Below are positions 3,969 to 62,321 of a stretch of DNA of 64,000 bases, piece after piece (the first letter of the stretch is position 1; the number at the start of each line of letters is the position of its first letter). Origin of the DNA: Onthophagus taurus (Eukaryota > Arthropoda > Insecta > Coleoptera > Scarabaeidae); assembly GCF_036711975.1 (NCBI RefSeq), contig NC_091972.1, forward strand, positions 1,059,001 to 1,123,000, given 5' to 3'. Made by a program: the position numbers and the translations under genes. A model generated the notes under the pieces. It was not told the origin of the DNA, did no database searches, and saw only the letters and a program-made list of their open reading frames with translations.

Positions 3969-4461
3969 AATGAGGCAAATAAAATGCAACATAGCTTAAT
4001 AGTACAGGCATTAGGTAGTTTTGCAAAGGAAAAGTTTTGCTTGGAAAAAGGTAATAACCCTGAGTTTTCGGCCATCTTAAAAAAAGCACGACTAAACACG
4101 AATGATTCTAGTTACAGGTCTTGTGTTACTTCAAGTGATAGTGTTAGTGCAAAACTAGAACTAAGACTAGACCGAGAACTAGAAACATTCGGGTTTAGCC
4201 GCACGTCTCTCAAGACGGCTAAACCCGAATGATTCTAGTTTCAGGTCTTGTGTTACTTGAAGTGATAGTGCTAGTGCAAAACTAGAACTAACGCTAGACC
4301 TGGAACTAGAATCATTCGGGTTTAGCCCCACGTCTTTCAAGACAGCTAAACCCGAATCATTCTAGTTACAGGTCTTGTGTTACTTCAAGTGATAGTGCTA
4401 GTGCAAAATTAGAACTAACACTAGACCGATAACTAGAAACATTCGGATTTAGCCCCACGTC

Positions 4462-6045: not shown

Positions 6046-7108
6046 TAGCCCCACGTCTTTCAAGACAGCTAAACCCAAATGATTCTAGTTACAGGTCTTG
6101 TGTTACTTCAAGTGATAGTGCTAGTGCAAAAGTAGAACTAACACTAGACCTGGAACTAGAAACATTCGGGTTTAGCCCCACGTCTTTCAAGACAGCTAAA
6201 CCAGAATCATTCGAGTTACAGGTCTTGTGTTACTTCAAGTGATAGTGCCAGTGCAAAACTAGAACTAACACTAGACCTGGAACTAGAAATATTCGGGTTT
6301 AGCCGTGCGCCTGAAGACGCAGGGCTAAACCTTACTTCTAGTAAGGTAGATACTTTCTAGTTCTAGGTCTAGTGTTAGTTCTAGTTTTAGTGCAATAAAA
6401 ATATGCAACATAATGATATCTTATGTTAACTAGTGCTACCTACCATTGTCACTAGAACAAACACTAGACCAAGAACTAGAAACATTCGGATTTAGTCTCA
6501 CGTCTCTCAAGACGGCTAAACCCGAATGATTCTAGTTCCATGTCTTGTGTTAGTTCAAGTGATAGTGCTAGTGCAAAACTAGAACTAACAGTAGACCGAG
6601 AACTAGAAACATTCCGGTTTAGCCGCACGTCTCTCAAGACGGCTAAACCCGAATGATTCTAGTTCCAGGTCTTGAGTTAGTCTTGTGATAGTGCTAGTAC
6701 AAAACTAGAACTAACCCTAGAACTAGAAACCTTCGGGTTTAGCCGTGCGTCTTCAGACGCACGAAACCCAATACTTGCTAGTTCTAGGTCTAGTGTTAGT
6801 TCTAGTTTTAGTGCAATAAAAATATACAACATAGTGATATCTTATGTTAACTAGTGCTATCTACCACTATCACTAGAACTGATATTAGACCTACAACCAG
6901 AAACATTCAAACATGTTGCAATTTAAGTGGTAGAAAGTAAGTAGGTACGCCATTGTTTCTATAGAAATATATTTTTGTATATTGCATCTTAAGTGAAATT
7001 CACTGTATATAGGGTATTAAAAGAAAACACGACCTTGAGTATAATTTCACACTAACAATAATTCTTTGATCTACTACATTTAAAAAAAAAAGTCATACGG
7101 GAAATTCT

Positions 7109-18162: not shown

Positions 18163-18168
18163 TATATA

Positions 18169-19865: not shown

Positions 19866-19869
19866 TATA

Positions 19870-26860: not shown

Positions 26861-28708
26861 CCACATAAAAGCTTAATATTACAGGCATTGGGTAGTTTTG
26901 CAAAAAAAGAGTTGGTTGGAAAAGGTGATGTCCTTATGATGACTCTGAGTTTTCGTCTTAAGAGACGCACGACTAAACCCGAATGTTTCTGGTTCTAGGT
27001 TTAGTGTTAGTTCTACTTTTCGTTCAATAAAAATATACCACAATCTAACGCTGAATAACAATTAAAATTAGAACCAACACTAGACTTAGGTCTAGAAACA
27101 TTCGGGTTTAGCCGCATGTCTCTCAAGACGGCTAAACCCGAATGATTCTAGTTCTAGGTCTTGTGTTAAATCTAGTGATAGTGCTAGTGTAAGATTAGAA
27201 CTAACACTAGACCGAGAAGTAGAAACATTCGGGTTTAGCCGCACGTCTTTCAAGACAGCTAAACCCGAATGATTCTAGTTCTAGGTCTTGTGTTAGTTCT
27301 AGTGATAGTGCTAGTGTAAGATTAGAACTAACACTAGATCTAGAACTAGAAATATTCGGGTTTAGCCGTGCGTCTTTCAAGACAGCGAAACCCGAATGAT
27401 TCTAGTTCTAGGTCTTGTGTTAAATCTAGTGATAGTGCTAGTGTAAGATTAGAACTAACACTAGACCGAGAAGTAGAAACATTCGGGTTTAGCTGGACGT
27501 CTTTCAAGACAGCTAAACCCGAATGATTCTAGTTCTAGGTCTTGTGTTGGTTCTAGTGATAGTGCTAGTGTAAAATTAGAACTAACACTAGATCTAGAAC
27601 TAGAACTAACACTAGATCTAGAACTAGAAATATTCGGGTTTAGCCGTGCGTCTTTCAAGACAGCGAAACCCGAATGATTCTAGTTCTAGGTCTTGTGTTA
27701 AATCTAGTGATAGTGCTAGTGTAAGATTAGAACTAACACTAGACCGATAAGTAGAAACATTCGGGTTTAGCCGCACGTCTTTCAAGACAGCTAAACCCGA
27801 ATGATTCTAGTTCTAGGTCTTGTGTTGGTTCTAGTGATAGTGCTAGTGTAAAACTAGAACTAACACTAGATCTAGAACTAGAACTAACACTAGATCTAGA
27901 ACTAGAAACATTCGGGTTTAGCCGTGCGTCTTTCAAGACAGTGAAACCCGAATGATTCTAGTTCTAGGTCTTGTGTTAAATCTAGTGATAGTGCTAGTGT
28001 AAGATTAGAACTAACACTAGACCGAGAAGTAGAAACATTCGGGTTTAGCTGGACGTCTTTCAAGACAGCTAAACCCGAATGATTCTAGTTCTAGGTCTTG
28101 TGTTGGTTCTAGTGATAGTGCTAGTGTAAAATTAGAACTAACACTAGATCTAGAACTAGAACTAACACTAGATCTAGAACTAGAAATATTCGGGTTTAGC
28201 CGTGCGTCTTTCAAGACAGCGAAACCCGAATGATTCTAGTTCTAGGTCTTGTGTTAAATCTAGTGATAGTGCTAGTGTAAGATTAGAACTAACACTAGAC
28301 CGATAAGTAGAAACATTCGGGTTTAGCCGCACGTCTTTCAAGACAGCTAAACCCGAATGATTCTAGTTCTAGGTCTTGTGTTGGTTCTAGTGATAGTGCT
28401 AGTGTAAAACTAGAACTAACACTAGATCTAGAACTAGAACTAACACTAGATCTAGAACTAGAAACATTCGGGTTTAGCCGTGCGTCTTTCAAGACAGTGA
28501 AACCCGAATGATTCTAGTTCTAGGTCTTGTGTTAAATCTAGTGATAGTGCTAGTGTAAGATTAGAACTAACACTAGACCGAGAAGTATAAACATTCGGGT
28601 TTAGCTGCACGTCTTTCAAGACAGCTAAACCTGAATGATTCTAGTTCTAGGTCTTGTGTTAGTTTTAGTGATAGTGCTAGTGTAAAACGAGAACTAACAC
28701 TAGATCTA

Positions 28709-29063
28709 TAGTCGAGCCGTCGAATTTGTGCAGTGATAAATCACCGTGACAAGTAGGTAAATTTCTTACATAGTCGGTCGCCCTGTCCGGATTCGTCAAA
28801 ACAAGTGACCACACCCCTTCTGGGGGTAGCGCACTGAGCGCGTTATTGGAGACAAAAAAATAATAAAAGCCGCTGACGCACTGTGAACGGTATTCATAAC
28901 TTCTTATCTGACTGTAAAGGAAGGTTTATTCTCGTATAGTGTAGCTGCGCCTTATAGACCCTGGTGGGAGTAGGCGGTTACATAACGAAGGAACCGACTA
29001 CCCCTTTTTTTGTAAGTACCTGTCACGGTGCTTTACCACTGCACAAATTCGACGGCTCGACTA
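28709..29063. mobile_element. 355-bp MITE, 8-bp target duplication (hAT-like)
   Basis: Inverted ends read TAGTCGAGCCGTCGAATTTG from both sides and stay similar for about 45 bp (through CACCGTGACA). It is flanked by TAGATCTA at 28701-28708 and 29064-29071. The flank is itself palindromic, so the boundary could be off by a few bases. An 8-bp duplication points to hAT or P-type mobilisation. The interior is GC-richer than the array and has no ORF. Confidence 0.82.
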
Positions 29064-30015
29064 TAGATCTAGAAACATTCGGGTTTAGCCGTGCGTCTTT
29101 CAAGACAGCGAAACCCGAATGATTCTAGTTCTAGGTCTTGTGTTAAATTTAGTGATAGTGCTAGTGTAAGATTAGAACTAACACTAGACCGATAAGTAGA
29201 AACATTCGGGTTTAGCCGCACGTCTTTCAAGACAGCTAAACCCGAATGATTCTAGTTCTAGGTCTTGTGTTAGTTCTAGTGATAGTGCTAGTGTAAAACG
29301 AGAACTAACACTAGATCTAGAACTAGAAACATTCGGGTTTAGCCGTGCGTCTTTCAAGACAGCGAAACCCGAATGATTCTAGTTCTAGGTCTTGTGTTAA
29401 ATCTAGTGATAGTGCTAGTGTAAGATTAGAACTAACACTAGACAAAGAAGTAGAAACATTCGGGTTTAGCTGCACGTCTTTCAAGACAGCTAAACCCGAA
29501 TGATTCTAGTTCTAGGTCTTGTGTTAGTTCTAGTGATAGTGCTAGTGTAAAACTAGAACTAACACTAGATCTAGAACTAGAAACATTCGGGTTTAGCCGT
29601 GCGTCTTTCAAGACAGCGAAACCCGAATGATTCTAGTTCTAAGTCTTGTGTTAAATCTAGTGATAGTGCTAGTGTAAGATTAGAACTAACACTAGACCGA
29701 CAAGTAGAAACATTCGGGTTTAGCTGCACGTCTTTCAAGACAGCTAAACCTGAATGATTCTAGTTCTAGGTCTTGTGTTAGTTCTAGTGAGAGTGCTAGT
29801 GTACAACTAGAACTAACACTAGACCTAGAACTAGAAACATTCGAGTTACTAAACCCGATACGTTATAGTTCTAGGTCTAGTGTTAGTTCTAGTTTTATTT
29901 GTAATTCAAAGCTCGCAGCGTTCCCTGTATTGATTCGTTATATCGAGGTTTTACAGTAAAGTCAAATTATATTGACATGTTGCATTTTATGTGGGACAAA
30001 GCAAGTAGGTACGCC

Positions 30016-32161: not shown

Positions 32162-32978
32162 TCAATTAGTTTTATTTCCAGGATAATCCGGTTGTTTATA
32201 AGGATGTGTACTTGAGAAACAAGGATGATTCTCCAATTCTTTATCGATTCGAACAATTAGAGGATAATCCTCCACTTCGACTTTATATTTCCTAGCATTA
32301 AAAACTTGAGGTACCAAACAAACATCAGCCATAGTTATTTTATCGCCAACGCAATATTTCCCAGCGGTTTTCGAAAGAATCGCTTCCAAAGCTTTAAATC
32401 CTTTCGCAATCCAAAACTTGGGCCATTCCTCATAATCGTCCAACTTTTTCAGCACCCCAGTATTTTGAATGGGCTGAATACTACACACAATCAATAGAAC
32501 GATTTCCCGAACCTAAAAACACCCTTTTCTAGAATATTAACTTTAATTACTTTGACTTACTTTTATTTTTTCGTCATTATCTTCTGGAATTAATTTATAT
32601 CCAAAACGATTTTCTTCCAAATATATCATAATATTGTAAGAATCGATCAAAACGCGATCGTGCAGTTTTAAAGCTGGGACAAACCCTAGAGGATTAATCT
32701 TGAGAAATTCTTCGTCATGTTGCTCGTCGTCTGCCAGGGATATCGGCTTCAGGTCGTATCCTAAACCCTTGAAATTCATAACTGACGGGCATACAAGAGC
32801 ACTTTAAAGTTCGTCTGGGTTAAAAGGCATAATAAAATGAAGCTCACCGATCCTCACCCTCCATGAACATGAACTGCTCCACGAGGAATACAACACCGGC
32901 TGAAAATAACACTCTTAAGTTATGTTTGAGAGCAGCCCTAGTTTATGAGGAAATCTTTATCACCTTCAACGAAGCCAT
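32162..32978 (-). CDS. GstZ: Zeta-class glutathione S-transferase / maleylacetoacetate isomerase
   Basis: Four exons: 32964-32978, 32848-32899, 32561-32781 and 32162-32512, giving 212 residues, the normal length for this family. The enzyme isomerises maleylacetoacetate to fumarylacetoacetate with glutathione in tyrosine breakdown, in the cytosol. Diagnostic features are the zeta active-site motif SSSCSWRVRI at residues 13-22, the cis-Pro segment LGFVPALKL, DSYNIMIYLEE for glutathione binding, and the C-terminal domain blocks VREIV, GKYCVGDKITMADVCLVPQ and VFNAR. The first coding exon is only 15 nt (MASLK), with donor GTGATA, so the start is slightly less certain than the rest. Compact gene with introns from 48 to 66 bp, unlike its repeat-filled neighbours. 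Confidence 0.95.
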
Positions 32979-33605: not shown

Positions 33606-36600
33606 TTAACTTTCAATAGCTTTAGTAATCCAATCAACAGTATGAGACACCCGATGATAAATTCCAGGTTGTCCGGGTTGAGCACACGAATATCCCGCAG
33701 AAACGATTCCAATCAGATACCACCGATTTTGTTTCTGAAGCATCAAAGGACCCCCGCTATCCCCCTGACAGCTATCTCGACCACCGTTTTTATAGCCGGC
33801 ACAGAGCATTTCATCGTAAATAACGACTCCGATTCCTTTCGAGCGGTGCCACCTTTCGCAAAGTCTGCTTTCGATCACAGGCACTTTAACGGCTTGTAGG
33901 GTTTGGGGGCGCAGTCTGGATCCGGGACTCATCGCACCCCATCCGGCAGCCACCCCGACCTCACCCAGGAAGCTCTCACCTTTTGGAGGTAGACAAATTG
34001 GAGCGATGTGCGGCAGCGATTGGGCGGTTCTATCTAATCTCAGTACGGCGACGTCGAATCGATCCGCTTGGGGTGTGAATTTGAAGAAAGGGTGTACCTG
34101 AAATGAATCACAAAATTATAAAAAAAAGATTATTATGGTTTATTAATGCGTACGAAAGAAAAATTTTGATTCATTAATAGGATTACACAAGTTTTACATG
34201 ATTTAAAACAACTTTGCCTATTTTGGTAGGTTTAACTCATCGAATTATTGCATATTGAATTGAATTTTATTCAATGAATAATCTGAGCAAATAAAAAATA
34301 ATGTAAATAATTAAGCATATGCATGCAAAGTGTACACTTGTGTAGTATCAATAGGGATTGGTTCCAGTATTCCTTAGTTAGATAGATACATTTTATATCG
34401 TAATTAAATCCAGTATCCAGTGGATGATTGTTGTATATATTAGATGATTCCTAAAATTCATGGGAGATCGCGCGGATGATTCCAATTCTCAGTTTTTGGG
34501 TGTATCATAAACAGTGCCGGCGCTAGCAAATGAAGCGCCAGGGTGCGGGAACCGGAGTGCCCCCCCCCCACGCATTTTGGGCGGAATGCGGAGGGGCGCA
34601 AAGTCTGAAATTGCAATAGTTATAAACTAGACTTCAGCAAAAAACAGGAATTACATTGTTCAAAGTCCACATGAAGTCTGAAATTACTGTTCAGAGAAAA
34701 CAAAACATTGATTATAAACCAAACATGATTTTTGATGGCAATACTTATGTGTTCAATAAAAGAATGCGAAGAATATGAACAACGAACCAATGGACTTGTC
34801 TTGTTATTGCACAGGACAGGAAATCACCAATACGGAAACTTTGCCAATGTAGGATAAGCACAAAAGCAAAGTAACAGCTGCGGAAATGAGGTACCAGGTT
34901 GTACAAGATCCGTGTAGAAAATAAGAGGCTGCCAAAAAGATGATGGTCTATCCCCCCAGAAAGAAGTAGCTGTCAGTATCAAGAACAAAACATACATAAC
35001 GTTGGCAGAAGCCTAGATACTGCTTCTAAAAAACTAAATACGGCTTTCTGAAGACTAGATACTGCTCTGGAAGATTAAATACTGCTTTCTGAAGACCAGA
35101 TACTGCTTTGGAAGATTAAATACTGCTTTTTGAAGACTACATACTGCCGACAGGTCTAAATACAGCGTCTGGAACACTAAATACTGAGTTCTAAAGACTA
35201 AAATTTCTTCGTGGAGACTAAAGACTGCTTTCTGAAGACTAGATACTACTAACAGGTCTAAATACTGCAAAAGAAAGATAAAATATTTTGAAGAAAACAT
35301 ATATAACTTTGGCAGACGATTAGATACTGCTTCTAGAAGACTAAATACTGCTTTCTGAAGACTAGATACTGCCGACAGGTCTAAATACAGCGTCTGGACC
35401 ACTAAATACTGCTTTCTAAAGATTAAAATTGCTTTGTGGAGACTAAATACTGTTTTCTGAAGACTAGATACTACTAACAGGTCTAAATACTGCAGAAGAG
35501 AGATAAAATATTTTGGAGAAAACATATATAACTTTGGCAGACGATTAGATACTGCTTCTAGAAGACTAAATACTGCTTTCTGAAGACTAGATACTGCCGA
35601 CAGGTCTAAATACAGCGTCTGGACCACTAAATACTGCTTTCTAAAGACTAAAATTTCTTTGTGGAGACTAAATACTGCTTTCTGAAGACTAGATACTACT
35701 AACAGGTCTAAATACTGCAAAAGAAAGATAAATATTTTGGAGAAAACATATATAACTTTGGCAGACGATTAGATACTGCTTCTAGAAGACTAAATACTGC
35801 TTTCTGAAGACTAGATACTGCCGACAGGTCTAAATACAGCGTCTGGACCACTAAATACTGCTTTCTAAAGACTAAAATTGCTTTGTGGAGACTAAATACT
35901 GTTTTCTGAAGACTAGATACTACTAACAGGTCTAAATACTGCAAAAGAAAGATAAAACATTTTGAAGAAAACATATATAACTTTGGCAGACGATTAGATA
36001 CTGCTTCTAGAAGACTAAATACTGCTTTCTGAAGACTAGATACTGCCGACAGGTCTAAATACAGCGTCTGGACCACTAAATACTGCTTTCTAAAGACTAA
36101 AATTGCTTTGTGGAGACTAAATACTGTTTTCTGAAGACAAGATACTACTAACAGGTCTAAATACTGCAAAAGAAAGATAAAATATTTTGGAGAAAACATA
36201 TATAACTTTGGCAGACGATTAAGTACTGCTTCTAGAAGACTAAATACTCCTTTCTGAAGACTAGATACTGCCGACAGGTCTAAATACAGCGTCTGGAACA
36301 CTAAATACTGCTTTCTAAAGACTAAAATTGCTTTGTGGAGACTAAATACTGTTTTCTGAAGACTAGATACTACTAACAGGTCTAAATACTGCAAAAGAAA
36401 GATAAAATATTTTGGAGAAAACATATATAACTTTGGCAGACGATTAGATACTGCTTCTAGAAGACTAAATACTGCTTTCTGAAGACTAGATACTGCCGAC
36501 AGGTCTAAATACAGCATCTGGAACACTAAATACTGCTTTCTAAAGACTAAAATTGCTTTGTGGAGACTAAATACTGTTTTCTGAAGACTAGATACTACTA

Positions 36601-39600
36601 ACAGGTCTAAATACTGCAAAAGAAAGATAAAATATTTTGAAGAAAACATATATAACTTTGGCAGACGATTAGATACTGCTTCTAGAAGACTAAATACTGC
36701 TTTCTGAAGACTAGATACTGCCGACAGGTCTAAATACAGCGTCTGGACCACTAAATACTGCTTTCTAAAGACTAAAATTGCTTTGTGGAGACTAAATACT
36801 GTTTTCTGAAGACTAGATACTGCTGACAGGTCTAAATACTGCAAAAGAAAAATAAGATATTGTTGGAGAAAACATTAAAAAGGCGCCGGCGCCCCCTTTT
36901 AAGCGGCGCCCGGGTGCAGTGCACCCCTTGCACCCCCCGGTAGCCCCCCGTAGTTTTTACATTGATTGGACCTGGACAACCATGCCGATCAACGAAGCAG
37001 TGTTAAATAGAGCAAACACCAAACGACTTGCCGATGTGATTACCAACGTTGTATCGAATTTATAATGACAAAACCTCTGAAGATAACAACTAAAGACTGT
37101 CGAAACATGTAAGGTTGATAAAAAATTACTTAATGGTAAATTTTAATTTTTCATAACCCTAAGTTTTATAACATTCTAAACCAGAATGTTTCTGGTTGTA
37201 AGTCTAGTGTTAGTTCTACTTTTCGTTTAATAAAAATATACCATAATCTAACGCTAAATAACAATTAAAACTAGAACTAACACTAGACCTAGAACTAGAA
37301 ACATTCGGATTTAGCCGCATGTCTCTCAAGACGGCTAAACCCGAATGATTTTAGTTTTGATCCGCTACATCGAGGTTTACTGTAATGTTAAATTATATTT
37401 TAATAATAAGCACTTTAGGTAGGACAAAGTAAGTAGGTACGCTCTGGTTTCTATGGAAATATATTTTTGTATATTGCATCTTAAGTGAAATTCACTGAAT
37501 ATTGCGACACCGACATCACTATAACTGTTGATATCAAACGTTCGAAGAACTGATAACCTACTTTTTAATAAATAGGGGCAAATACTCTTATAGGGGCTAC
37601 ACATTTATATAATATTTAAGAGCATTTAAACGCATTAATACAAGCGCCTATGCTCAACAAAGTGATGGTAACTTATTCTTCTTTTATTTATAAAAGAAAT
37701 TATCCTTGTTAAAAATTTTAACAGTAAACAATCTCTTTTCTTCTGTCAATACCTTTTAGTTAGCACATCTCGCCGAAAAGAAGTTTACCAGATGACTTCA
37801 CTTACACTTTCTAGACAACGATTTAAAGGCTTTCGACTACCGATATTGCAAAAACATCGCAGTCGATTCTGCACTTTCACTATAATGAAATTACCAAGTT
37901 TATTGTTTCTTTATAGAATTTTTATGAGTTAAAATTTTTAAAGTAATATAAATAAATAATAAAATTGTAATCAATTTAATTAAATAAACCAGCTTCATTT
38001 GCTACTAATTAATGAAGACCTAAATAACCTACATTAAATAATAAAGAAAAATGTATTAACATGTTCTCTTAATTTATTAGAAAGGGTGAAATTATCGATG
38101 TTAATTTTTTATCAACCTAAAAATTATTTAAATTATATTTAAACCTAAACAACATAAAAAAGGAGCTATAATTATTCATTAGGAGGTGGCGCTAGTCATA
38201 GTAATAACTAATAACCGTGTAATATAGCAGTTTCAAATCGTTCGTCTAAAGGAGAAAGTGTGGAATCACGGCCAAATGTTGAAGAAACGAAAGCCAGGCG
38301 ACTCCCACTTAACGATAATTGATCACTTTCGTTTTCGCATCTTCAACCGAGCCTCAGGCATCCGGACTTTACCGTAACGATTCCTCCGAAACAATTGTTT
38401 AATGAAATAATCATCAAGTACAATTTTCGCAATTAATCCTTTACCAACTTATTCATTTATTAGATAAGAAATCTAAAATTATTCCACATCTCTTTGTAAA
38501 TAGCGTGTATAAGTCAAACGATAGAGAAATCGCTAATTTTAAAATGAACATTATAAAAAGAAAGTCAACGTTGTTGATGGAGAAATGTGATGTTAAAAAT
38601 AAAATAAAAATTTAACAATAAAAATAATAAATATAGGATGAGGAATTTTTTCCGTATTTTGTTTAAATCGATTTCGATCAACATTATTTCTATCTGCGAC
38701 CAGGAAACACAATTACCCGGCTTCGTTAAATGGAAAACGGTCATCCAGCCGATTGTAACCGTTTAATATTTACTGGGTCCCTTCGACAAATACATTTGCA
38801 TCAAAGGGTCGATGTATATGTGTTGGTCAACGAGAGCTGCCCTTAATTAATAATCAACATGGACAAAACAGACCTGTATTGAGGAAACGCCGAATGTGTA
38901 GGCTGGTAATGGTTCAACAGCCGAATTTATGACGTAATCTCCCAATGTCACATGAACTTGTCTAGGAACCGCTCTTGCAACACAATGTCCAGCTGTGACA
39001 ACATGTCGTCTGCTCACAAGAGAACCTCCACATCTACAATAAAAAAAAATAATTAAAATACAAATTATTAATTAATAGTGTAAATAAAGGTTTATGTAAA
39101 ATATGTAAACTAATCAGTCATTAACCCATCTTAAAGAAGCTTTCATAAAAATATACGAGGTTGGTCGACCGCAAGTCAATAAGAAGTAAATCCGCGTCGC
39201 TGCTTAATTATACAAACCCATAATAAGAGGAAGCAGTTCATTACCTCTTGAGAAAATGGTGTTCCTCATTCCCATACTGGGTAGAAACTGAAGAAGAAAA
39301 CATGGGAAATAACCTTGGAGTTCGACAAAAAGTGGCGCATACATACTTTTGTTTGTTAACGCGAATTATTTAATTGCCTCCTCCGAAATAGATTCTAGAA
39401 AGCCGGGTGATGATGATTTTCGAATTAAGATAAATCGTGAAAGTCGGTTATGTAAAGCAAGAGATATTAAATGATTTTTTTTTGAAAGTCTACACTAACA
39501 CAATCAAAGAATCAAATCTAGATTTTAAAAACTCTCACAATCATTTTCACAGTCAAGATCAGTTATTCCTCAAGATTACTTTTAATAAAATAAAGATTTA

Positions 39601-45587: not shown

Positions 45588-47112
45588 TCACTTAAAATGC
45601 AATATACAAAAATATATTAACATATGCAGAAATCTGAAGACGCACGGCTAAACCCGATACTTTCTAGTTCTAGGGCTAGTGTTAGTTCTAGTATTACACT
45701 AACACTATCACTAGAACTAACACTAGAACTAGAATCATTCGGGTTTAGCCGTCTTAAGAGACGTGCGGCTAAATCCGAATGCTTCTAGTTCTTGGTCTAG
45801 TGTTAGTTCTAGTGACAGTAGTAGGTAGCGCTAATTAACATAAAATATCATTATGTTGCATATTTTTATTGCACTCAAACTAGAACTAACACTAGACCTA
45901 GAACTAAAATTATTCGGGTTTAGCTGCCTTGAGAGACGTACGGCTAAACACGAATGTTTCTAGTTTTAGGTCTAATGTTAGTTCTAGTATTAAATATTGT
46001 TTAGCGTTAGATTGTGGTATATTTTTATTGAACGAAAAGTAGAACTAACATTAGACCTAGAACCAGAAACATTGGGATTTAGTCGTGCGTCTCTGAAGAC
46101 GGTCAAAAACTCAAGGTTATCATAAGGACGTCACCTTTTTCCAAGCAAAACTTTTTCTTTGCATAACTACCCAATGCCTGTACTATTAAGCTATGTTGCA
46201 TTTTAAATGGGACCGTGTAAGTACATAGTAGTTTCGTAACTATGGTTACTGCATTAATAAAGGTGTGTCCCAAAATTAACGCAAGATTTCAATTTGCCGC
46301 CATTCATGCAGTAAAGTGTTGACAACCCTAAAAAAAAATCGACAGTTGACAGTTTAGGGTTAGTCTTTGATTATATATAATATGGATTGAGCCAACGAGA
46401 GAGATAGCTTGCGCAAGGTGATCGAACCGAGATAGACATAGAAACGTACAGCCATATAATGGGTGTACAGGGTGTCCCAATTTCGATGTCCGCATAGGCT
46501 ATCTCCGAAACTAAAAGAGATAGAAAAAAAGTAGCTTACATGTCATGATCCCGTTTTTCGAGAAAATGCTAATGCCGAAAACTCCGAACAGCTATCGTCT
46601 TTTGTTTTCACCCTATCGGCAAAAACTGAAAATTTTGCAAAAACGACAATCGCGAATATCTCACTTATTATCAAAAATGGAGTATTATAAATAAAACATT
46701 ATATGGGCAACTTTTTACGAAGAATTCAGTGGCGTAGGTAGAATTTTTTTCCCATCTTTTATTTTCGAGATTTTAGACGTAACTTTATTTTTTTAAATGG
46801 AAACCATAGTTGGCTATGACTTAAAATAATTTGTTATTTTCTTCTGATAACAAATATATATAGTTTGTGGGGTATATTTCTTATAGTTATTGAATAATTA
46901 ACAAAAATTCATTTTGTTCCATCTAAATCTAATGTATGAATTTAAAAGTTAATGTTGCTATGGTGATAACCATACATACTATGATGGAATATAATGTATC
47001 AATTTGTTTGTTCTTTCTAAAACTATTGTATGTATTTAAAACTTAATGTTGTTATGGTAATAACCATACCATGAGGGAAAGCATTGTTTCCAATTATTGC
47101 CAAAGTTTGTAG

Positions 47113-47437
47113 CAAGGACAGTAGAATCTAACAGGACTGCTACATCCATTGTATTTTTGTAGTCGACTACGGGTTGGTTGCCCGCACTCTACGTCACACT
47201 ATTTGCCACGCCTGATAACTGTCTATGTTTTTAGAGGTTATATGATAGACATTAATACGTCTAAAAAACATAAAACTTCAAAACTAATATGAATACGTCT
47301 AGGATATAACCTCTAAAAACACACAGCAAACGCATAGACTATAACAACAGCTAGGCGTGGAAAATGGTGTGACGTAGTTTGCTGGTAGGCTGTCACAACA
47401 ATGGATGTAGCAGTCCTGTTAGATTCTACTGTCCTTG
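47113..47437. mobile_element. 325-bp MITE, 9-bp target duplication (Mutator-like), level 5 of nest
   Basis: Inverted repeats of 40 bp are perfect by eye: both ends start CAAGGACAGTAGAATCTAAC and continue AGGACTGC to TCCATTGT. Flanked by AGTTTGTAG at 47104-47112 and 47438-47446. A 9-bp duplication is typical of Mutator-like elements. The perfect arms suggest a recent insertion. Confidence 0.9.
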
Positions 47438-48096
47438 AGTTTGTAGTAGTATTTAAAAATTCACTAACAACTCTGGCATTATGTGCTGGTGCTTCGTCAT
47501 ATTGAAAATATATCATTTGAGACATATTTAGTGGCAAATTGTCGTTCAAAGGCTCAATGTGCTGCCTTAATATATTGAGGTATTTCCCTGAGTTTAAGTT
47601 TTTATGGTAGATACTATATGCCAAAATTCTATTATCTAAAAGGGCACACCATACATTGAACCCCAATCTTCTTTGAACACTCAGAGACTTCATCGGTCCA
47701 GATTACATTTTGAACAAACATCAGATTATTTAATTTTTTTAAATATCATCTACAAAATTCTAATCTTCGATTGACATCTCCGGCACGTAAATAATGAGTT
47801 AGCCCCGCTTTGTATGGTTTATACTTATTTTTCTTTCATATTCGGGAGCGGTGTCTTTTGGGTCAGACGACTTGTTGCAATTTCTCTTGCAGGTCATTTT
47901 GGTATGTTTTTGCACGTGGTTTGGAGAAGGACCAAAAATCTATTAAATTTTCTGCTGACCGGCTGAAGGTTCGTACGTGCGGTTGTCTTCTTTCTGGATA
48001 TCTTGTGAAATAAAATTCCGCGGCTAACGTCGCATTGTTATCTGATAACATATAGCATTCCATCATGTTACATTTTTCATAATTTTCGAAATTCAT
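47438..48096 (-). pseudogene. Broken transposase of level 4 element
   Basis: Begins MNFENYEKCNMMECYMLSD with a helix-turn-helix-like AAEFYFTRYPERRQPHVRTF block. After shifts, VIWTDE (first Asp), FNVWCALLDNRILAY, YFQYDEAPAHNARVVSEFL (second Asp) follow. The frame is then cut by the 325-bp MITE at 47437. Frameshifts and loss of the third catalytic block make it inactive. Confidence 0.78.
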
Positions 48097-48809
48097 TGTA
48101 AAGTTTTATTCAGTTTTGTTATACTTTGACACTTAACACGCTGGTGCATAATGCCAGCACATAATGCCAGAGTTGATATCGAATTTTTAAATACAAACTT
48201 TGGCAATTATTTGATACATTATGTTCCATCGTAGTATGTATGGTTATCACCATAGCAACATTAACTTTTAAATACATACATTAGTTTTAGACAGAACAAA
48301 ATGAATTTTTGTTAATTATTATAAAGTTACGTCTAAAATCTCGAAAATAAAAGATGGGAAAAAAATTCTACCTACGCCACTGAATTCTTCGTAAAAAGTA
48401 GCCCATATAATGTTTTATTTATAATACTCCATCTTTGATAATAAGTGAGATATTTGCGAATGTCGTTTTCGCAAAATTTTCAGTTTTTGCCGATAGGGCG
48501 AAAACAAAAGACGATAGCTGTTTCGGTATTAACATTTTCTCAAAAAACGAGATCATGACATGTAAGCTACTTTTTTTCTATCTCTTTTAGTTTCGGAGAT
48601 AGCCTATGCGGACATCGAAATTGGGACACCCTGTACTGATAGAAGTGAGATAGATATAGAAGCGTACTGACATATAATATATCTATCTTTGTTACACTTT
48701 CACATTATCGCTTTCCATCTGCGTCTATTCACCTTGAGCAACATTTTTGTTAGTAGATATATTCAGTTAGCTCAATCCATATAATATATAATCAAAGGGG
48801 TTAGTAAAA

Positions 48810-51167: not shown

Positions 51168-51860
51168 ATATAATTCGCAATATATGAATGCAGTAACCAT
51201 AGTTATGAAACTACTATGCACTTGCACTATCCTACATAAAATGCAACATAGCTTAACGGTGACGTCCTTATGACAACATTGAGTTGTTTCACATGTTAGG
51301 TCTATAGACCTAGAATAAGAATTAACACTATAGTGTTAATTCTACTTTTTGTTCAGTAAAAATATATCACAATTTAAAGCTGAATAACAATTAAAACTAG
51401 AACCCACACGTCTCTCAAGACAGCTAAAGCCGAATGATTCTAGTCTAGATCTTGTGTTAGTTCTACTGATAGTGCAAAACTAGAACTAACACTAGACCTA
51501 GATCTAGAATCATTCGGATTTAACCGCACGTCTCTCAAGACGGCTAAACTCGAATAATTATAGTTCTAGATCTTGTGTTAGTTCTAGTGCTAGTGCAAAA
51601 CTAGAACTAACACTAGACCTAGAACTAGAAAGTTTTAGGTCCTCTTAAGAGACGCATGGTTAAACTTGAATGTTTCTAGTTCTAGGTCTAGTGTTAGTTC
51701 TAGTTCTAACTAGCGCTATAACGGGCACTCCCTTTCCCGTATTAATCCGTAATATCGAGGTTTTACTATAATGTCGAATGATATTGACATGTGTGCATTT
51801 TATGTGGGACAAAAACAAAGTAAGTAGGTACACCCTGGTTTCTATGGAAATATATTTTTG
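51168..51860. repeat. Foldback-like element copy f
   Basis: B-type terminus CGGGAGTTTCATATAATTCG at about 51159-51180, then ATGAATGCAGTAACCATAGT, the subterminal ACATAAAATGCAACATAGC, CTAG-rich arms, and the A-side block GTAGGTACACCCTGGTTTCT at about 51827. The final A-type terminus is truncated at about 51860. Confidence 0.75.
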
Positions 51861-53634: not shown

Positions 53635-53848
53635 CAGTCTAAGCAGCCCATTGGTAGGGCATGTCGGAACAGTTTTGAGCATGTTGTTTAAATCTATAAA
53701 TGGTAGTTCTAGCCACTTTCCCTATATGCACATGCAAAGGAGATAGGCCAAGCAGAACATCCATTGCTAGAGTTGGCGTTGTGCTTATCACACCAGAGAT
53801 TGCCAATCTAGCTACTCGTTGAATTCGTTAAAGTTTACTGATAATAAT

Positions 53849-54924
53849 ATAATCTATAATGTTAGACATTCCAATTTACTCTTTGTTCTTATCAATACAG
53901 ATAATCAAGTATTGAATAAGTAATAATAATAATAAATACTCAATAATATCAGGTCCTTAAAAAGTCATAAAAAATTTGTGTTAAGATTTGATGCCAATTA
54001 AATAATCACAAATAAAAATACAAAAATAAAATAAAATTTAAAAAAATAAACGAAACGTAAAAGTGATACATAAAATTTCTTATATTTATTAACACAAACC
54101 TGCTTTTAGAAATAGCTCTCTTTAAATCTTTCTGTAAACTTTGTACTTTAGTGTTAGAGGCCTCAAGCTTAACACAAGCAATTCTATGAGCGGTCCCAGC
54201 TGTACATCTTTCTTTTTCAGCATCGTTCACTCGTTGAGTAGCACGATTTAACATTTCTTGCCATGCAGGATCTAAAAGATTAATCTTAATACTTATATTA
54301 ATGTTTGTATTAATTCTTTTTTACCTAAAGTACGACCTCCTAAACCTTGTTCTGCTAAATAAACCATTTCCCTAGCAGCACTGTGAGCACTATTAGCTCT
54401 CTCATATTTCATAGCAGCTATTTGAGTATGTTTCAATGCTTCATTTGCAGAAAATCGCGCCTCATAATACGGTTTGGCTCTTTCAACACACAACCCCAAT
54501 TTTACCCTTAAAGCTTCAACTTTTGCTGTACTTTCACATAATAATTGTCGAAACGAAGCCCTAGCATCGTCTAAATCTACCTCCAACCTGTTTATATTAT
54601 CAGTAGCACTATTGAGCCTTTCCAACTCGATGTGAACTCTTGGATCTACACTATTCGTGTATTCCGCACCATTTTCACTCATTCTTATTCAGTTTTTATT
54701 AAAAAAAATCAGGATTTATTGATAATTATTGTCACTAGATGCTGGTTTTGTAAACCTTTGGATTCAGGTTTTAGATTGAATTTGGTCTCACCTCATTGGT
54801 TTGTAATTGTTATTTCAGGACTCTGATTTAACTCTCATTGAATGATTAACCAAAACAAACGTAGAACATCGACGTCCTCCTGAAACACACCTGAAATGTT
54901 AAATGTCAAATGGTGCAGTATAGT
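53849..54924 (-). repeat. Inverted partial copy of the SH3BP5 gene 5' end
   Basis: Corresponds to 57069-58157 in inverted orientation, including 5' UTR, exon 1, the 53-bp intron 1, exon 2 and the first part of intron 2. About 98 percent identity in exon 1 by eye. Introns are present, so it was copied as DNA, not by retroposition. The outer junction has a palindromic filler TTCAATTATAATTGAA at 54924-54939. Confidence 0.92.
54100..54682 (-). pseudogene. Partial SH3BP5 copy, exons 1-2
   Basis: Exons 54325-54682 and 54100-54271 keep Met, both reading frames and all splice sites seen in the parent gene (GTAAAA donor, TTTTAG acceptor, GTTTGT donor). Only a few amino acids differ (Asp to Asn near residue 11; His to Arg in LNxATQRVND). 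The 3' exons are absent, so a normal protein cannot be made. A truncated 176-residue coiled-coil fragment is possible if it is transcribed. Called a pseudogene for lack of the catalytic and C-terminal parts, not because of stops. Confidence 0.75.
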
Positions 54925-55235
54925 TCAATTATAATTGAACCTATACCAGGCTGCTGCTCCGTATGTGATCATAGGTCTAACCATAGTCACATAGCGCCAG
55001 TACAGTCTTTCAGGGGTAAGACCCCAATTTTTTTAATAAAAACTACGACAAGTCCACAAGGATAGTCTAGCTTTATGTAAAACTCCCTGTAAACGTCCAT
55101 TCCATGAGATGGTTTTGTCTAGGATTACTCCTAGATATTTGACTTCCTTTGAGAAAGGAATTTCTTCACCTTGGACAGTTGGGCGGATTAGTCCATCCAA
55201 TTTTAAGTATATTTACCAACCCAGATCTGTTTGTC

Positions 55236-57068
55236 TTAGTCCAAACCTAACATGGTTCAAAACGCACAAAGACAACATGGACGCTACTCTTGAGTGGTAC
55301 CAACTTAGTCACATGCTCGAGCGTTGACCAAGAGAAGTGCAATTTTTTGACTTTTAAATCATTCCTTTCAGGCCAAGTGTAGTATATTATTTCAAATGAT
55401 TGTAATTAAATATATATTTAAGGTGTTTTAAATTTTCAAATTACGTATTCTTAAAATGTTCCAACAATAGCAGAAGCGAACAAAATTTATTAGCATCTAA
55501 ATCGAAGCAATCACGTTCACTTTCCAACGTATTGTGGATAACCTCCGTGACGTGTTATTTCTTCCATTGTAACGCAGAGGTTGCCTTCTGAATCCTTAAC
55601 TCTTCGGTTACAGCTGTTCGCGTCGCAACATAAGCGATAAGGAAAAGTCGCGCCGCTTTCCATTGTTTCGTTACGTTATCAGAATTAAGTTATGAGGAAG
55701 TCGTTTCTTTATGCATTTACGATACAACACAATAAAATAGCAGAAAATACGATTCATGGATAATAAAAGTATGAAATCATTTTGTCTCGTTTACCAATTC
55801 AAATTGAGATTTGAAATTGGATATATTTGGAGTTACTTTTAGGTTTGATTTGATATTAATTCGGAATTAATTTAATCAAATTAATCAATTTTTTTAACAT
55901 TTTAAATTTTTTGATATGTTGAAATTTTTTTGTGTTAATATGTAAAGAAAGTTTTCGGGCGTTGAGCAAAACGATGTGGCATTGCGGCGTAAGACGGAGG
56001 CAATGGCTGGTTGGTTGGCGTCGTCGAAGAGAAGAAGAAAGTATGTGAAAGTGTGGCCTAGAACTCGAGGAGGTCCCCTTGTTTTGATCGGACACCGCGT
56101 TCTTCGTGATGTTATTGTCAAGGCCAAACATCTACTTCTTCGCCATTGGACGCATGGCCCCCAAGAACGACTCAACACGAGGCTTTTCTGTTCAAAAGAC
56201 CTCCACCAAAATTTCACTGTCACTCTTCAACGTTGCGGTTGAGACCTTCTTTATTAAAATTAGTCATCCGAGCGTAATCTGTTGCACTTCCTGTTACAAC
56301 GACGCTTGCGGCCTAAATAGACAACCATCAGGAGAAACCTTCTAATATCAGAAATGACATAAGATGGTAAATATGTCATTAGGTAAATTTTTTTGAAAAA
56401 CTTTACAGAAATGATGTTTTATAAGAATAACTAGAAAATATGTAAAATGAAACTATCAAGTGAGAAAAGCGATAATGTCTTAACGATTTCAATTATTCTA
56501 GAATTTTAATGGCTAAATGGAAATTTAAGCTGCACAATCTCTACAAGATGTTGAATGAATGAAGATTTCACGTGAAACGAACAACGCGTTTCCACCGTAG
56601 CCATTACGAGGGGAGTGTAAAAATGTAAGAAACGCAGTCTTAGTCTCACTGTCACCACACTGAACGAATCAGGTATTTTATTGCATTTTTGCCCACCAGT
56701 CGACATGATTTCTCTGATAAACACGTAACAAATTTCTCCTTCATTGCTTCTTGTAACATTTTCCGATTGTTTCATTTGAGGTGCAAGTGAAAGCATAAGT
56801 CGTAAAAAAAATAATTGCCATATCTCAAATTAATCAGGAATCAGTATCATGTATAGAGTTAAACAATAAATTTAATGATAAAATTTATGATGATTTTCTG
56901 TTTCAAATCTTTAAATCTTAAAGTAGTAAAAAAGATAATTTTATTCATAAAAGTGTTTTGAAATTAGTATTCTTAATCAATAATAAATGAGTATAGGCCA
57001 CTCCAGTTTATTATTTATAAAAACACCGAAAGATAGGCAACCCAATACACATCCATTATAATATCCCC
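55236..57068. other. Intergenic spacer between inverted SH3BP5 copies
   Basis: About 55480-55640 and 55960-56340 are GC-richer and have overlapping frames on both strands, none convincing. The rest is AT-rich. It would form the loop of the inverted repeat. Confidence 0.4.
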
Positions 57069-57309
57069 ACTATACTGCACCACTTGACATTTAACATTTC
57101 AGGTGTGTTTCAGGAGGACGTCGATGTTCGACGTTTGTTTTGGTTAATCATCCAATGAGAGTTAAATCAGAGTCCTGAAATAACAATTACAAACCAATGA
57201 GGTGAGACCAAATTCAATCTAAAACCTGAATCTAAAGGTTTACAAAACCAGCATCTAATGACAATAATTATCAATAAATCCTGATTTTTTAAATAAAAAC
57301 TGAATAAGA

Positions 57310-60300
57310 ATGAGTGAAAATGGTGCGGAATACACGGATAGTGTAGATCCAAGAGTTCACATCGAGTTGGAAAGGCTCAATAGTGCTACTGATAATATAA
57401 ACAGGTTGGAGGTAGATTTAGACGATGCGAGGGCTTCATTTCGACAATTATTATGTGAAAGTACAGCAAAAGTTGAAGCTTTAAGGGTAAAATTGGGGTT
57501 GTGTGTTGAAAGAGCGAAACCGTATTATGAAGCGCGATTTTCTGCAAATGAAGCATTGAAACATACTCAAATAGCTGCTATGAAATATGAGAGAGCTAAT
57601 AGTGCTCATAGTGCTGCTAGGGAAATGGTTTATTTGGCAGAACAAGGTTTAGGAGGTCGTACTTTAGGTAAAAAAGAATTAATACAAACATTAATATAAG
57701 TATTAAGATTAATCTTTTAGATCCTGCATGGCAAGAAATGTTAAATCATGCCACTCAACGAGTGAACGATGCTGAAAAAGAGAGATGTACAGCTGGGACC
57801 GCTCATAGAATTGCTTGTGTTAAGCTTGAGGCCTCTAACACTAAAGTACAAAGTTTACAGAAAGATTTAAAGAGAGCTATTTCCAAAAGCAGGTTTGTGT
57901 TAATAAATATAAGAAATTTTATGTATCACTTTACACTTGATTCTTTTATGTTTCGTTTACTTTTTCAAATTTTATTTTATTTTTGTATTTTTATTTGTGA
58001 TTATTTAATTGGCATCAAATCTTAACACAAATTTTTTATGACTTTTTAAGGACCTGATATTATTGAGTATTTATTATTAATATTACTTACTCAATACTTG
58101 ATTATCTGTATTGATAAGAACAAAGAGTAAATTGGAATGTCTAACATTATAGATTATTGGTACAATTTTTTTTAATTTAGTTGAAAATTTTAACAGAGTA
58201 TTAACTTAGTCATTTTGTACTGAATGCTTAAGAAATCTGGCCAAGCATTCGCCATTTCCATGTCTAACAACAACAAGGTTATCAACAACGCTTCTGATAG
58301 CTGCTATTTCCATAGCAGAATTTCACTTAAGATGCAATATACAAAAATATATAGTACCTACTTACTTTGCCCCACATAAAATGCAACATGTCAATATAAT
58401 TTGACATTACAATAAAACATTGTATTTATAATAAAATAGTATATTATTATATGAGCATATAATAAGGGCTATTATTCACTGAGGTTAAGTTTATGTCACG
58501 TAGCGTAGCGAGCATATTTCAAGAATAGCATTGTGTCCTAAAAATCGATGATTTTTTTAATCGATAGAAAATGACCTAAACATGGCGTTAATAATAAAAA
58601 AAGTGCGGAAAAGTGTAGTACTTACCGAAATATCACTTAGTTGCGATGTGACGTTACATTTTGTGAGGTTATAAGCAATGTTAACCATGCATTTTCGTAT
58701 TAAATCCTAACCTCAAATTGTTTAATTTATACTCACGCACAAAATAAAACTAATAAACTTAAAAGTAAAGTTAAATAATTTTTTGAATAAAGTTTAAACA
58801 TCAATGTGACACAAATTCAATGTTACCAACAGTAACCAACTTCATAACAATTTGTCAAAATGTCAATTTTATGAAACGTCATATTTTTTTACGAAAATTA
58901 ATTAATTTATGTTTAAATCATACGAAAAAAGGAATTTGTTTACATTTTTTTTTAATGGTAAACCTTTAGAAAGCCCTAAAAAAATTAAATTAAATTGACG
59001 TTTCTTGAAATTTTGTCGTTTCAAATAATTATTAGTCTGTCAAGTTGATTACCCATGAATAATGATTATTCACCGCTATTATTCACTCTATGAAAAATGA
59101 CGTTTTAGAAAACCTTTGATTATATATAATATGGATTGAGCCAACGAGAGAGATAGCTTGCGCAAGGTGATCGAACCGAGATAGACATAGAAGCGTACTG
59201 ACATATAATGGGCGTGCGTTAATTTATAAGATAAAAAACTATCAATTAGAAGTAACATTTATAATACTTACAGGTGATGTGAAACTGTATTATCGCGAAC
59301 TTTACACACGAAACAATACATTTTTAAACATAACGGTGTGACTGGCTGTGACACAACAAAACGATAAACGTCAAGTTTGACACTTTTGTGCGCATGCACC
59401 CGTCTGTTTAGTACCGTTTTATGTCTATCTTTGTTACACTTTCACATTATCGCTTTCCATCTGCGTCTATTCACCTTGAGCCACATTTTTGTTAGTAGAT
59501 ATATTCAGTTAGCTCTTTGATTATATATAATATGGATTGTCACGAGTGTAGCGAGTGGCATAATTAACCTGAGTGAATAATAGCTCATTATATGCGAGTA
59601 GAATACTATACTTTGTCCACGACTATTGAAATTGATTCCATAAATTTATTTTTTAAATAAATTTTTGAATAAAGGTTAAACGTCAATGTGACACAAATTC
59701 AATGTTACTAACTGTAACCAACTTCACAACAATTTGTCAAAATTAAGTGTCAATTTTATAAAACGTCGTTTTCTTTGCGAAAATTAATTAATTTATGCTT
59801 AAATCATACGAAAAAAGGAATTTGTTTAGGTTTTTTTAATGTCAAACATTTAGAAACTCCTAAAAAATTGAATTAAATTCACGTTTTTTGAACTTTTAAC
59901 GTTTCAAATAATTATTATTAGTCTGGTCAAGATGGCTACCCGTGAATAATGATTATTATTCACCGCTGTTATTCACTCCGTGAAAAATGACTACCATTTT
60001 GTTTTAGAAAACTCATTCATAAGGTATATATTATAAGGTAGTCTTGGACAAACTCATTTGTAATATAGACATAATATGGCATATTTTTATTGAACTAAAA
60101 CTAGAACTAACATTAGACCTAGAATTAGAATCATTCGGGTTTAGCTGTCTTAAGAGACGTACGGCTAAGCCCAAATGTTTCTAGTTCTAGGTCTAATGTT
60201 AGTTCTAGTGATAGTGCAAGTGTAAAACTAGAACTGACGCTATACGTAGAAATAGAATTATTCGGGTTTAGCCGTTTTTAGAGATGTGCGGCTAAACCCA

Positions 60301-62321
60301 AATGATTCTAGTTCTATGTATAGTGTTAGTTTTACATAGTAATAGTGCTAGTGTAAAACTAGAACTAACACTAGACCTAGAACTAGAAACATTTGGGTTT
60401 AGCCATGAGTATTCAGACGCACGGCTAAACCCGAAACTTTCTAGTTCTAGGTCTAGTGTTAGTTCTACTTTTAATTGTTGTGCAGCGCTAGACCAAGAAC
60501 TAGAATCATTCCGGTTTAGCCGTCTTTAGAGACGTGCGGCTAACCCCAAATGATTCTCGTTCTAGGTATAGTGTTAGTTCTACATAGTAACAATGCTAGT
60601 CTAAAACTAGAACTAACACTAGATCTAGAACTAGAAACATTCGGGTTTAGCCGTGCCTCTCTTAAGACGGCCGAAAACTCAACGTTGTCATAAGAATGTT
60701 ACCTTTTTCAAGCAAAACTTTTCCTTTGCAAAAGTACCCCATGCCTATACTATTAAGCTATGTTGCATTTTATGTGGGGCAGTGCAAATGCATTGTAGTT
60801 TCGTAACTATAGTTACTGCATTCATATTCTGCGAGTTATAAAAGTTCTGAAAGATGTGAACGAAGCGTTGTGCTGCCATCATTACAACCCTTTCTATATC
60901 TGTGTTGGCGGCACATCGGCCTCTATTATCTAAAGTACAATATCAATACTTCTAAATAATCATTTATAATAAATATCACAAGAATCTATGAAGAATATTA
61001 TATTTATTAGGTTTATTTATTTTTTATTTATAATTTCCTTTTATTTCCTTATTTCTTTAGTTTAGCTATTCGAAGAGCACTTGTATCCATGAGTAACATT
61101 GCCAGTCGACATGAGTTAATGTTGTTGTAAGTAAATTTAGCCGTCGTTCATCAATGTTTAATGTTAAATTTCTGTACTAATTTTTATTTCCAAACTTTTA
61201 TTTAATAAAATATTACTTATAGGCCATATTATGAAATGAAAGCTCACTTCAACAATCTCCTCGAACAGCAGAAATACAAAGTTCAACACTTAGAATCGCA
61301 AGTATCCACATCAAAATTAATCTACGCTGACGCACTTCGAAATTTAGAACAAATTTCGGATGAAATCCACCAAAAACGTAACAAGGAGAACGGGATAGAA
61401 TTAAGTGCTAACAAACAAATCAGCGTGGAGAGTAGTGAATCGTTTATTGATGAAATTGATGAAGAAGAGTACAAAAGTCTTCCCAGAAATCTTACGGCCG
61501 TTTCCTCACCAATTTATGCGAACTTAGAAGAGTTAGAAGGTTATAAAAATATTAGTGTTGGAAACAGTATATCGCCAATGTCGCCCATTTCTCAAAGTGA
61601 AGAATCTGAAAAGGTACAAAAACCGTTGGAGCATAGTCAATCGAATGAGTGGACGGAAATCAATTTAGATGTATCTAGCCCTGAAGAAGATATTCCGTAT
61701 AAACAACTCGATGGGGTGGACGAAAAACCGAAATTGTCGAGACAAAAAACTTTACCAAATCCATCAATCGAAAACGAGTACAGTTTGTTGAGAAGTAAAG
61801 TTAAATTGGATGGAACGATTTCAAATTGGATTTCAAGGTCTTCCGCGAAGAGCGAAGCTGAGCACAGCAATGTAACTAGAAGACAAAGTCTTGATAACAT
61901 ATTAGGACCAACCGGCGAAAAAGTTAAAGAAATCTTTAATCATGGGATGATGATGTTAAATATTAGCTCGTTAACAGAACGAAGAAACAGCGAACCTAAA
62001 CCGGGTATTACTGAAGATAGAGGAAAAAGCTCTGGAAAGAAGTTACCATCACCGTTAGAAAAAACTTTGACTTATTTAAATATTGAAGATGATAATTCCG
62101 ATACGGAAAGTTTATCAAGGTTAGTAATTTTAACTTTTGCGTTATTTTATTTGTTTGAAATTAAATTTATTTTTAGTGTTGATATGTTGAATGAAGAGCA
62201 GATAAATTCATTGATGTTGGATAAAGAAATCGGCCATGTTTGTGAACAACTTCTTGGTACTCCATTAATAGAAGTGGTTTCTTTGCCTCAATGCAACGTC
62301 GAATCTAGTCAACCAAAATAG
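57310..62321 (+). CDS. pcs: SH3BP5 / parcas family Rab11 GEF
   Basis: Four exons: 57310-57667, 57721-57892, 61223-62119 and 62177-62321, giving 523 residues with consistent phases. SH3BP5 proteins (Drosophila parcas, worm REI-1) activate Rab11 by nucleotide exchange through a long antiparallel coiled coil. This coiled coil covers residues about 10-230: ELERLNSATDNINRLE, FRQLLCESTAKVEALR, CVERAKPYYEARFSANEAL, AWQEMLNHATQRVNDAE, then SRPYYEMKAHFNNLLEQQK and YADALRNLEQISDEIH. Beyond it lies a Ser/Glu-rich disordered tail, with a conserved-looking C-terminus (DKEIGHVCEQLLGTP). Intron 1 is 53 bp. Intron 2 is 3.3 kb and full of repeats. Intron 3 is 57 bp, a multiple of three without stops, so its retention would add 19 mostly hydrophobic residues. 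A partial inverted copy lies 2.1 kb upstream. Confidence 0.93.
58158..58317. other. SH3BP5 intron 2, unique part
   Basis: No feature; lies beyond the duplicated segment. Confidence 0.35.
58318..58430. repeat. Foldback-like element end fragment (copy g)
   Basis: Solo A-type end: GAATTTCACTTAAGATGCAA, then TACCTACTTACTTTGCCCCA and AAAATGCAACATGTC. No arms are left. Confidence 0.7.
58440..60020. repeat. Composite repeat: two direct copies flanking a MITE
   Basis: 58776-59112 and 59654-60012 are direct copies (CAATGTGACACAAATTCAAT; AATTAATTAATTTATG; CGTGAATAATGATTATT) with small indels. Near the outer and inner ends the motif GCTATTATTCACT occurs in both orientations (58466, about 59073, 59570 complement), suggesting an element whose end was inverted or rearranged. 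The MITE at 59114-59539 lies between the copies. Confidence 0.65.
59114..59539. mobile_element. MITE related to nest level 3, one end inverted
   Basis: Matches 46365-46465 and 48640-48775 of the nest (GAGCCAACGAGAGAGATAGC; CACTTTCACATTATCGCTTT). The left end CTTTGATTATATATAATATG is normal. At the right end the last 24 bp read TTTGATTATATATAATATGG directly rather than as an inverted repeat. No clear target duplication. In intron 2 of SH3BP5. Confidence 0.7.
60060..60850. repeat. Foldback-like element copy h
   Basis: CTAG-rich arms with hairpin modules (CATTCGGGTTTAGC) from about 60085, then the B-type block (CAAGCAAAACTTTTCCTTTG; ATGTTGCATTTTATGTGGGG; GTTTCGTAACTATAGTTACT) and a degraded terminus TGCGAGTTATAAAAGTTC near 60833. 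The A-type end is missing. In intron 2 of SH3BP5. Confidence 0.72.
60851..61222. other. 3' end of SH3BP5 intron 2
   Basis: AT-rich, ends with the acceptor TTACTTATAG at 61213-61222. No other feature. Confidence 0.5.

Follow-up and report, generated by a model that had tools for sequence, protein, structure and literature searches.

In a 64,000-nt stretch of the Onthophagus taurus genome (RefSeq assembly GCF_036711975.1, contig NC_091972.1, positions 1,059,001 to 1,123,000; hereafter the window), the first two exons of SH3BP5, a Rab11 activator of the SH3BP5/parcas family, occur a second time in inverted orientation. This copy lies within the remnant of a long interspersed nuclear element (LINE), where it replaces 19 bp of LINE sequence; it was copied from the gene into the LINE, and one of its junctions carries a palindromic filler. 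We consider it likely that the copy is a partial inverted duplication of modest age, produced when a break in the old LINE remnant, some 2 kb upstream of the gene, was repaired, and that it is now essentially an inert pseudogene fragment.

The inverted copy and its insertion site

The gene was identified as SH3BP5 by the match of its protein to Pfam family PF05276 (E = 8e-89) and to the human SH3BP5 structures 6ixv and 6djl (E = 3e-54). The Pfam match covers residues 10–233 of the 234 supplied and positions 1–227 of the 231 in the profile, which represents the coiled coil of the guanine nucleotide exchange factor (GEF). Alignment of the copy with its source by blastn gave 96.7% identity over 1090 columns, and a self-comparison of the window resolved the pair into three ungapped blocks across the same two intervals. 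The preliminary description had reported an inverted repeat of about 1.08 kb, 2.1 kb upstream of the gene, about 98% identical in exon 1 and with intact frame and splice sites, and both the alignment and the genome search agree with it. Its account of the content was right for the 5′ untranslated region (5′UTR), exon 1, intron 1 and exon 2, and left unmentioned the 265 nt of intron 2 that both arms also include. The features of the pair are as follows.

57069–58157, + strand: source arm, from the upstream/5′UTR sequence of SH3BP5 through exons 1 and 2, with intron 1 between them, to 265 nt into intron 2 (self-comparison, alignment, genome search, blastn)
57310–57667, + strand: coding part of SH3BP5 exon 1, ATG at 57310 (open frame, structure match, PF05276)
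57721–57892, + strand: SH3BP5 exon 2 (coding comparison, structure match)
61223–62321, + strand: rest of the SH3BP5 coding region from exon 3 onward, including the helix-4 region, with the end taken from the open frame (open frame, structure and paralogue matches)
53849–54924, − strand: inverted partial SH3BP5 copy, with exons 1 and 2, the whole of intron 1 and the start of intron 2 (self-comparison, alignment, genome search, blastn)
54325–54682, − strand: copy of exon 1, frame intact, D10N (coding comparison)
54100–54271, − strand: copy of exon 2, frame intact, H129R (coding comparison and alignment to the human SH3BP5 structure)
55340–57068, + strand: remaining spacer between the arms (its single genome match is itself)

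The arms are separated by 2144 nt, and the remaining spacer presumably holds upstream regulatory DNA of SH3BP5. The copy lies on the − strand and the gene on the + strand, head to head, the gene being transcribed to the right and the copy to the left. The arms differ by 6 substitutions in 241 positions and a 1-nt gap in the upstream/5′UTR part, by 7 in 358 in exon 1 (98.0% identical), by none in the 53 positions of intron 1, by 4 in 172 in exon 2, and by 5 in 251 together with a 14-nt gap in the intron 2 part. Both retain an intact reading frame, the GT/AG boundaries of intron 1 and, after exon 2, the GT donor. When the arm was searched against the O. taurus genome (290.8 Mb in 33 contigs), two first-look candidates were obtained, and both matched: they are these two loci and no others. 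This search passes over very common words, which should leave a gene-derived query unaffected. Because the arms consist of gene exons and match two places in the genome, we reject the possibility that they are the terminal inverted repeats (TIRs) of a DNA transposon. No sign of gene conversion between the arms was seen: the differences (22 substitutions, 2 indels) are spread along them, and a longest identical run of at least 113 positions arises in 92% of random placements.

The copy is enclosed by a 0.5-kb remnant of a retrotransposon of the type lacking long terminal repeats (non-LTR), and the flanks match one repeated family at about 94% on each side.

54940–55204, − strand: LINE remnant on the 5′ side of the copy, about 94% identical to other genomic copies (genome search)
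53643–53844, − strand: LINE remnant on the 3′ side of the copy, about 94% identical to other genomic copies (genome search)
54923–54940: perfect 18-nt palindrome at the LINE/copy junction, which includes the 15-nt filler at 54925–54939 (palindrome scan, folding)
53845–53848: second filler, of 4 nt (ATTA when read in the LINE sense), at the opposite junction (alignment, junction comparison)

The element encodes a reverse transcriptase and RNase H in two successive frames, and in a longer copy of it, L071, the two flank pieces adjoin (2271–2535 and 2555–2756). For the two flanks, the best 40 of 606 and of 758 first-look candidates, respectively, were scored, and 30 loci were fetched per search. 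The insertion was seen in none of the 58 other loci fetched, which are paralogous copies of the LINE. At 56 of these, 19 bp stand in place of the 15 nt, 1076 bp and 4 nt found here, and the commonest form of this stretch, AAAGTCCGACAGACTTCAG, is present in 50 of the 56. The other two, L037 and L045, differ upstream and have no match to the upstream probe; followed from the downstream flank they are also uninterrupted, L037 being slightly altered. Some places are represented twice among the 56; once identical contexts (up to 600 nt) are merged, 48 empty sites remain beside the filled one described here. Since the gene side of the homology continues into exon 3 while the copy side lies in the LINE, the gene is the source, and the copying ran from gene to LINE. 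Because intron 1 and part of intron 2 were kept, the copy is not a spliced retrocopy; a processed retrocopy is ruled out by these introns and by an end that falls inside intron 2. Further pieces of the same LINE family occur in the window at 12355–13734 (85–95% identical to L071).

The LINE/copy junction reads GTATAGG-TTCAATTATAATTGA-ACTATACTGC. The 18-nt palindrome is the core of a longer imperfect one, extended by GTATAG of the LINE and CTATAC of the gene, with one unpaired base. Folding of the 46-nt junction strand gave z = −2.4, with 7 of 200 shuffles equally good, and the window contains 12 perfect palindromes with a length of 16 nt or more, against 2.1 expected. At the second junction the gene part ends in GATTAT, followed by ATTA and then by TTATCAG of the LINE, so that TTAT is common to the gene end and the LINE.

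These junctions suggest the following route. A double-strand break inside the LINE remnant would have been the trigger, after which a 3′ end at GTATAG may have folded back and been extended, giving the palindromic filler. The extended end could then have annealed through CTATAC to SH3BP5, about 2 kb away, where 1.08 kb of the gene would have been copied by microhomology-guided template switching, either by a DNA polymerase theta (Pol theta)-like route or by one linked to replication. Rejoining of the LINE would have taken place through TTAT.

We also considered whether the arms are what is left of a larger duplication, given that two oppositely oriented blocks, 51169–51256 and 60753–60840, lie beside satellite-like repeats and stop at 2680 and 2683 nt beyond the arms. 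This was taken as a coincidence, because satellite-like repeats are dispersed through the window and no other match links the intervening DNA. The satellite-like unit measures 127 bp (CTAGAACTAACACTAGACC...), has inverted halves and forms arrays of about 2 to 6 copies at 4088–6814, 27063–29847, 51407–51722 and 60079–60679; two of these blocks stand on either side of the SH3BP5 pair, oppositely oriented.

The hairpin RNA question

An inverted gene fragment of this kind could be a source of hairpin RNA (hpRNA): a transcript crossing both arms would fold into about 1 kb of double-stranded RNA (dsRNA), from which Dicer-2 would produce small interfering RNAs (siRNAs) against SH3BP5. The long, near-identical inverted repeat matching a gene that is looked for in hpRNA loci is present here. 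The arms are 96.7% identical, and the 21-mers shared exactly number 668 of 1069 along the arm and, once the coding exons are joined, 326 of 510. In addition, the hpRNAs of Drosophila simulans are reported to include some born beside their targets, among them one at ballchen that arose when part of the neighbouring 5′ region was duplicated (PMC10317233). However, the loop would be 2.1 kb long, and the sequence does not show a transcript across both arms. The head-to-head arrangement also bears on this, as the arms give transcripts of the same sense, which are not complementary. We therefore regard a hairpin source as unlikely.

The preliminary description had further proposed that the copy's own promoter might yield dsRNA. 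This fails on geometry: since copy and gene stand head to head, RNA started from their own promoters has the same sense, and the copy's RNA cannot pair with SH3BP5 mRNA. dsRNA needs either a single transcript through both arms, running rightward from the left of 53849 or in antisense from intron 2, or an antisense transcript over one arm. A newborn hairpin acting in cis, with the working gene as one of its arms, would satisfy this if upstream read-through or antisense transcription from the repeat-rich intron 2 gave dsRNA that damped SH3BP5 and hence Rab11 activation. We hold this version to be quite improbable; if it were true, the locus would represent an hpRNA stage that precedes the departure of both arms from the parent gene. 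A scan of the window against Rfam at gathering thresholds gave no matches, a result that says little about hpRNAs. Apart from the copied arm, intron 2 of SH3BP5 contains a direct repeat (58771–59101 and 59653–59991; 343 columns, 86%).

Possible retrotransposition and coding capacity of the copy

An origin by reverse transcription was weighed as well, in which the reverse transcriptase of a LINE changed template twice, from LINE RNA to unspliced SH3BP5 pre-mRNA and then to the former again, the chimera being inserted whole. The orientation of the copy, which follows the sense of the LINE, would agree with such an event, as would its start near a weak candidate transcription start site.

57089, + strand: weak candidate start site, an initiator (Inr)-like ACATTT with one mismatch and, at +28, GGACGT, which resembles a downstream promoter element (DPE) (motif match alone)

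The copy nevertheless begins 20 nt upstream of this candidate, it keeps intron sequence, and its distance of 2 kb from the source would have to be a coincidence, which together make template switching by the LINE enzyme rather improbable. The Inr-like and DPE-like motifs are identical in the copy (54904, − strand). Counting both strands, the window holds 16 such pairs, including these two, so the start-site candidate is weak.

The coding parts of gene and copy differ at 11 positions, 9 of them silent and 2 replacing an amino acid (D10N and H129R). His occupies position 129 in the gene as well as in its human counterpart and the C2 paralogue, which makes Arg the derived state, acquired in the copy. 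The polarity of D10N is not clear, and polarising the silent changes would take an outgroup, a role for which the C2 paralogue is too distant (42–60% identity). This paralogue is a second, diverged gene of the SH3BP5 family, located on contig C2 at about 15.5647–15.5685 Mb; the stated identity applies to three stretches, and further exon pieces are present.

Several observations weigh against break repair followed by inertness. The preponderance of silent coding differences (9, against 2 replacing) tends to favour some constraint on the copy: 7.6 replacements would be expected if the changes were placed at random (P for 2 or fewer = 0.00015, with the caveat that the gene branch is constrained in any case), and under a model of a neutral copy and a fully constrained gene the deficit still gives P = 0.02. 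When the rate is calibrated on the non-coding positions (11 of 545), 3.7 replacements are expected and the deficit vanishes (P = 0.29), but the same calibration reveals an excess of silent differences (9 against 3.3 expected, P = 0.007; Fisher test against non-coding, P = 0.03). Chance, or a source allele that already diverged from the assembled one, would explain this excess without function. With P values of 0.00015, 0.02 and 0.29 from the three calibrations, purifying selection on the copy is not established. As regards the origin, the event is read from one assembly, and the proposed repair route relies on junctions that may have mutated since, the flanks having diverged by 6% from the other copies.

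Another reading is that the copy might be a functional mini-gene, expressed from its own promoter as a 207-residue stub that might bind SH3BP5 or Rab11 in a dominant-negative manner. The intact frame and splice sites, the scarcity of replacements, the copied Inr/DPE candidate and the AATAAA signals downstream on the copy's strand (54090, 53563 and 53460) are in line with this. The AATAAA signals weigh little, as AT-rich DNA yields them easily. When exon 2 runs into intron 2 the frame stays open for 207 codons, the last 30 residues coming from intron 2, so the truncated coiled-coil protein suggested in the preliminary description is possible on paper. The PF05276 match of the copy, however, stops at profile position 171 of 231. 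In human SH3BP5, Rab11 contacts residues 39–67 and 240–262 (PMC6138693), and the structure alignment places the second stretch in exon 3, outside the copy (chain numbering; an offset of about one residue is possible). The predicted stub would thus have half of the Rab11 site and would be devoid of helix 4, whereas a Rab11 GEF requires the surface formed by helices 1 and 4. Together with H129R, which alters a His that the gene shares with human SH3BP5 and the paralogue, and with a replacement deficit that is not significant on the non-coding calibration, this makes a functional mini-gene very unlikely. Weak transcription of the copy is conceivable, should its upstream part include the core promoter. 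Nothing in the DNA shows that it makes a silencing RNA or a working protein, and most likely it is now essentially an inert pseudogene fragment.

The mostly silent divergence of about 2% resembles that between alleles and might suggest a second haplotype of exons 1–2 misplaced in inverted orientation by the assembly, but such an artefact is extremely unlikely, as the contigs are long (33 for 290.8 Mb), the copy differs by two indels as well as by that 2%, it has a specific context of its own, where it stands, with filler at each end, in place of 19 bp of the LINE, and a misjoin is hardly expected inside a 0.5-kb LINE remnant.

Comparison with known systems and other features of the window

The insertion shares several characteristics with the gap-filling captures described for animal DNA transposons, including Pack-TIRs, which acquire nearby sequence with a bias toward cis: in that survey 59.8% of captures came from the same chromosome, and 190 of 281 unique captures (67.6%) had microhomology at one breakpoint or more (PMC8277862). 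Here too, host sequence fills a gap between collinear parts of one transposon, a small piece of the element is lost, microhomology or filler is present at the joins and the source lies in cis. In contrast to Pack-TIRs, the capturing element is a non-LTR remnant with reverse transcriptase and RNase H rather than a TIR DNA transposon, and the insert is inverted and only 2 kb from its source. The copy is thus not a Pack-TIR; it is a capture into a non-LTR element, a class outside the TIR transposons that the survey covers (PMC8277862).

Young duplicates of C. elegans have a median span of 1.4 kb, about half of them are partial or chimeric, and the newborn ones are often adjacent and inverted (PMC2728529). 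The SH3BP5 copy, which is partial, about 1 kb long, adjacent and inverted, resembles them, although the host is an insect and the target site is a recognisable LINE. Regarding the junctions, human Pol theta performs stem-loop extension synthesis in vitro (PMC11292364), and one class of copy-number variant breakpoints in Drosophila carries inserted nucleotides (PMC4056370). Inverted-repeat sequence at a repair junction, as in the stem-loop extension products and templated insertions attributed to Pol theta, is also found here. Stem-loop synthesis would explain the filler, but a templated tract of 1.08 kb would presumably need much longer synthesis.

Like Drosophila hpRNA loci such as hp58 and the ballchen hpRNA of D. 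simulans, the O. taurus pair places an inverted part of a protein-coding gene beside that gene. In contrast to them, defined as they are by Dcr-2-dependent siRNAs and primary hairpin transcripts (PMC10317233), one arm here is the gene itself and the pair is known from DNA. If small RNAs existed over the arms, the locus would be an early stage of hpRNA birth. Even as an inert fragment it is a readable example of how an inverted gene fragment is born, as one genome contains both the source and, in other LINE copies, the target as it was before the insertion, and the filler is still visible. In this species, RNA interference or expression work on SH3BP5 could cross-hit the copy. A literature search combining parcas, SH3BP5 and duplication found no paper.

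Four inverted pairs of at least 250 nt and at least 85% identity are present in the window, including that of SH3BP5. One of the other three is a distant satellite-bearing pair (45879/27176), and two resemble transposon ends: 18165–19869 (304 nt, 97%) and 46465–48636 (324 nt, 94%) surround transposase-like frames at 18786–19136 and 47313–47702, respectively, and are probably DNA transposons, the transposase label having been read by eye. A tandem array at 35098–36875 consists of 7.9 copies of a 225-bp unit (96%), through much of which a 388-residue frame on the − strand (35708–36874) stays open. Two frames on the − strand (24556–24888 and 33609–34115) correspond to trypsin-like serine proteases (PF00089), and a frame at 32165–32512 to the C-terminal domain of glutathione S-transferase.

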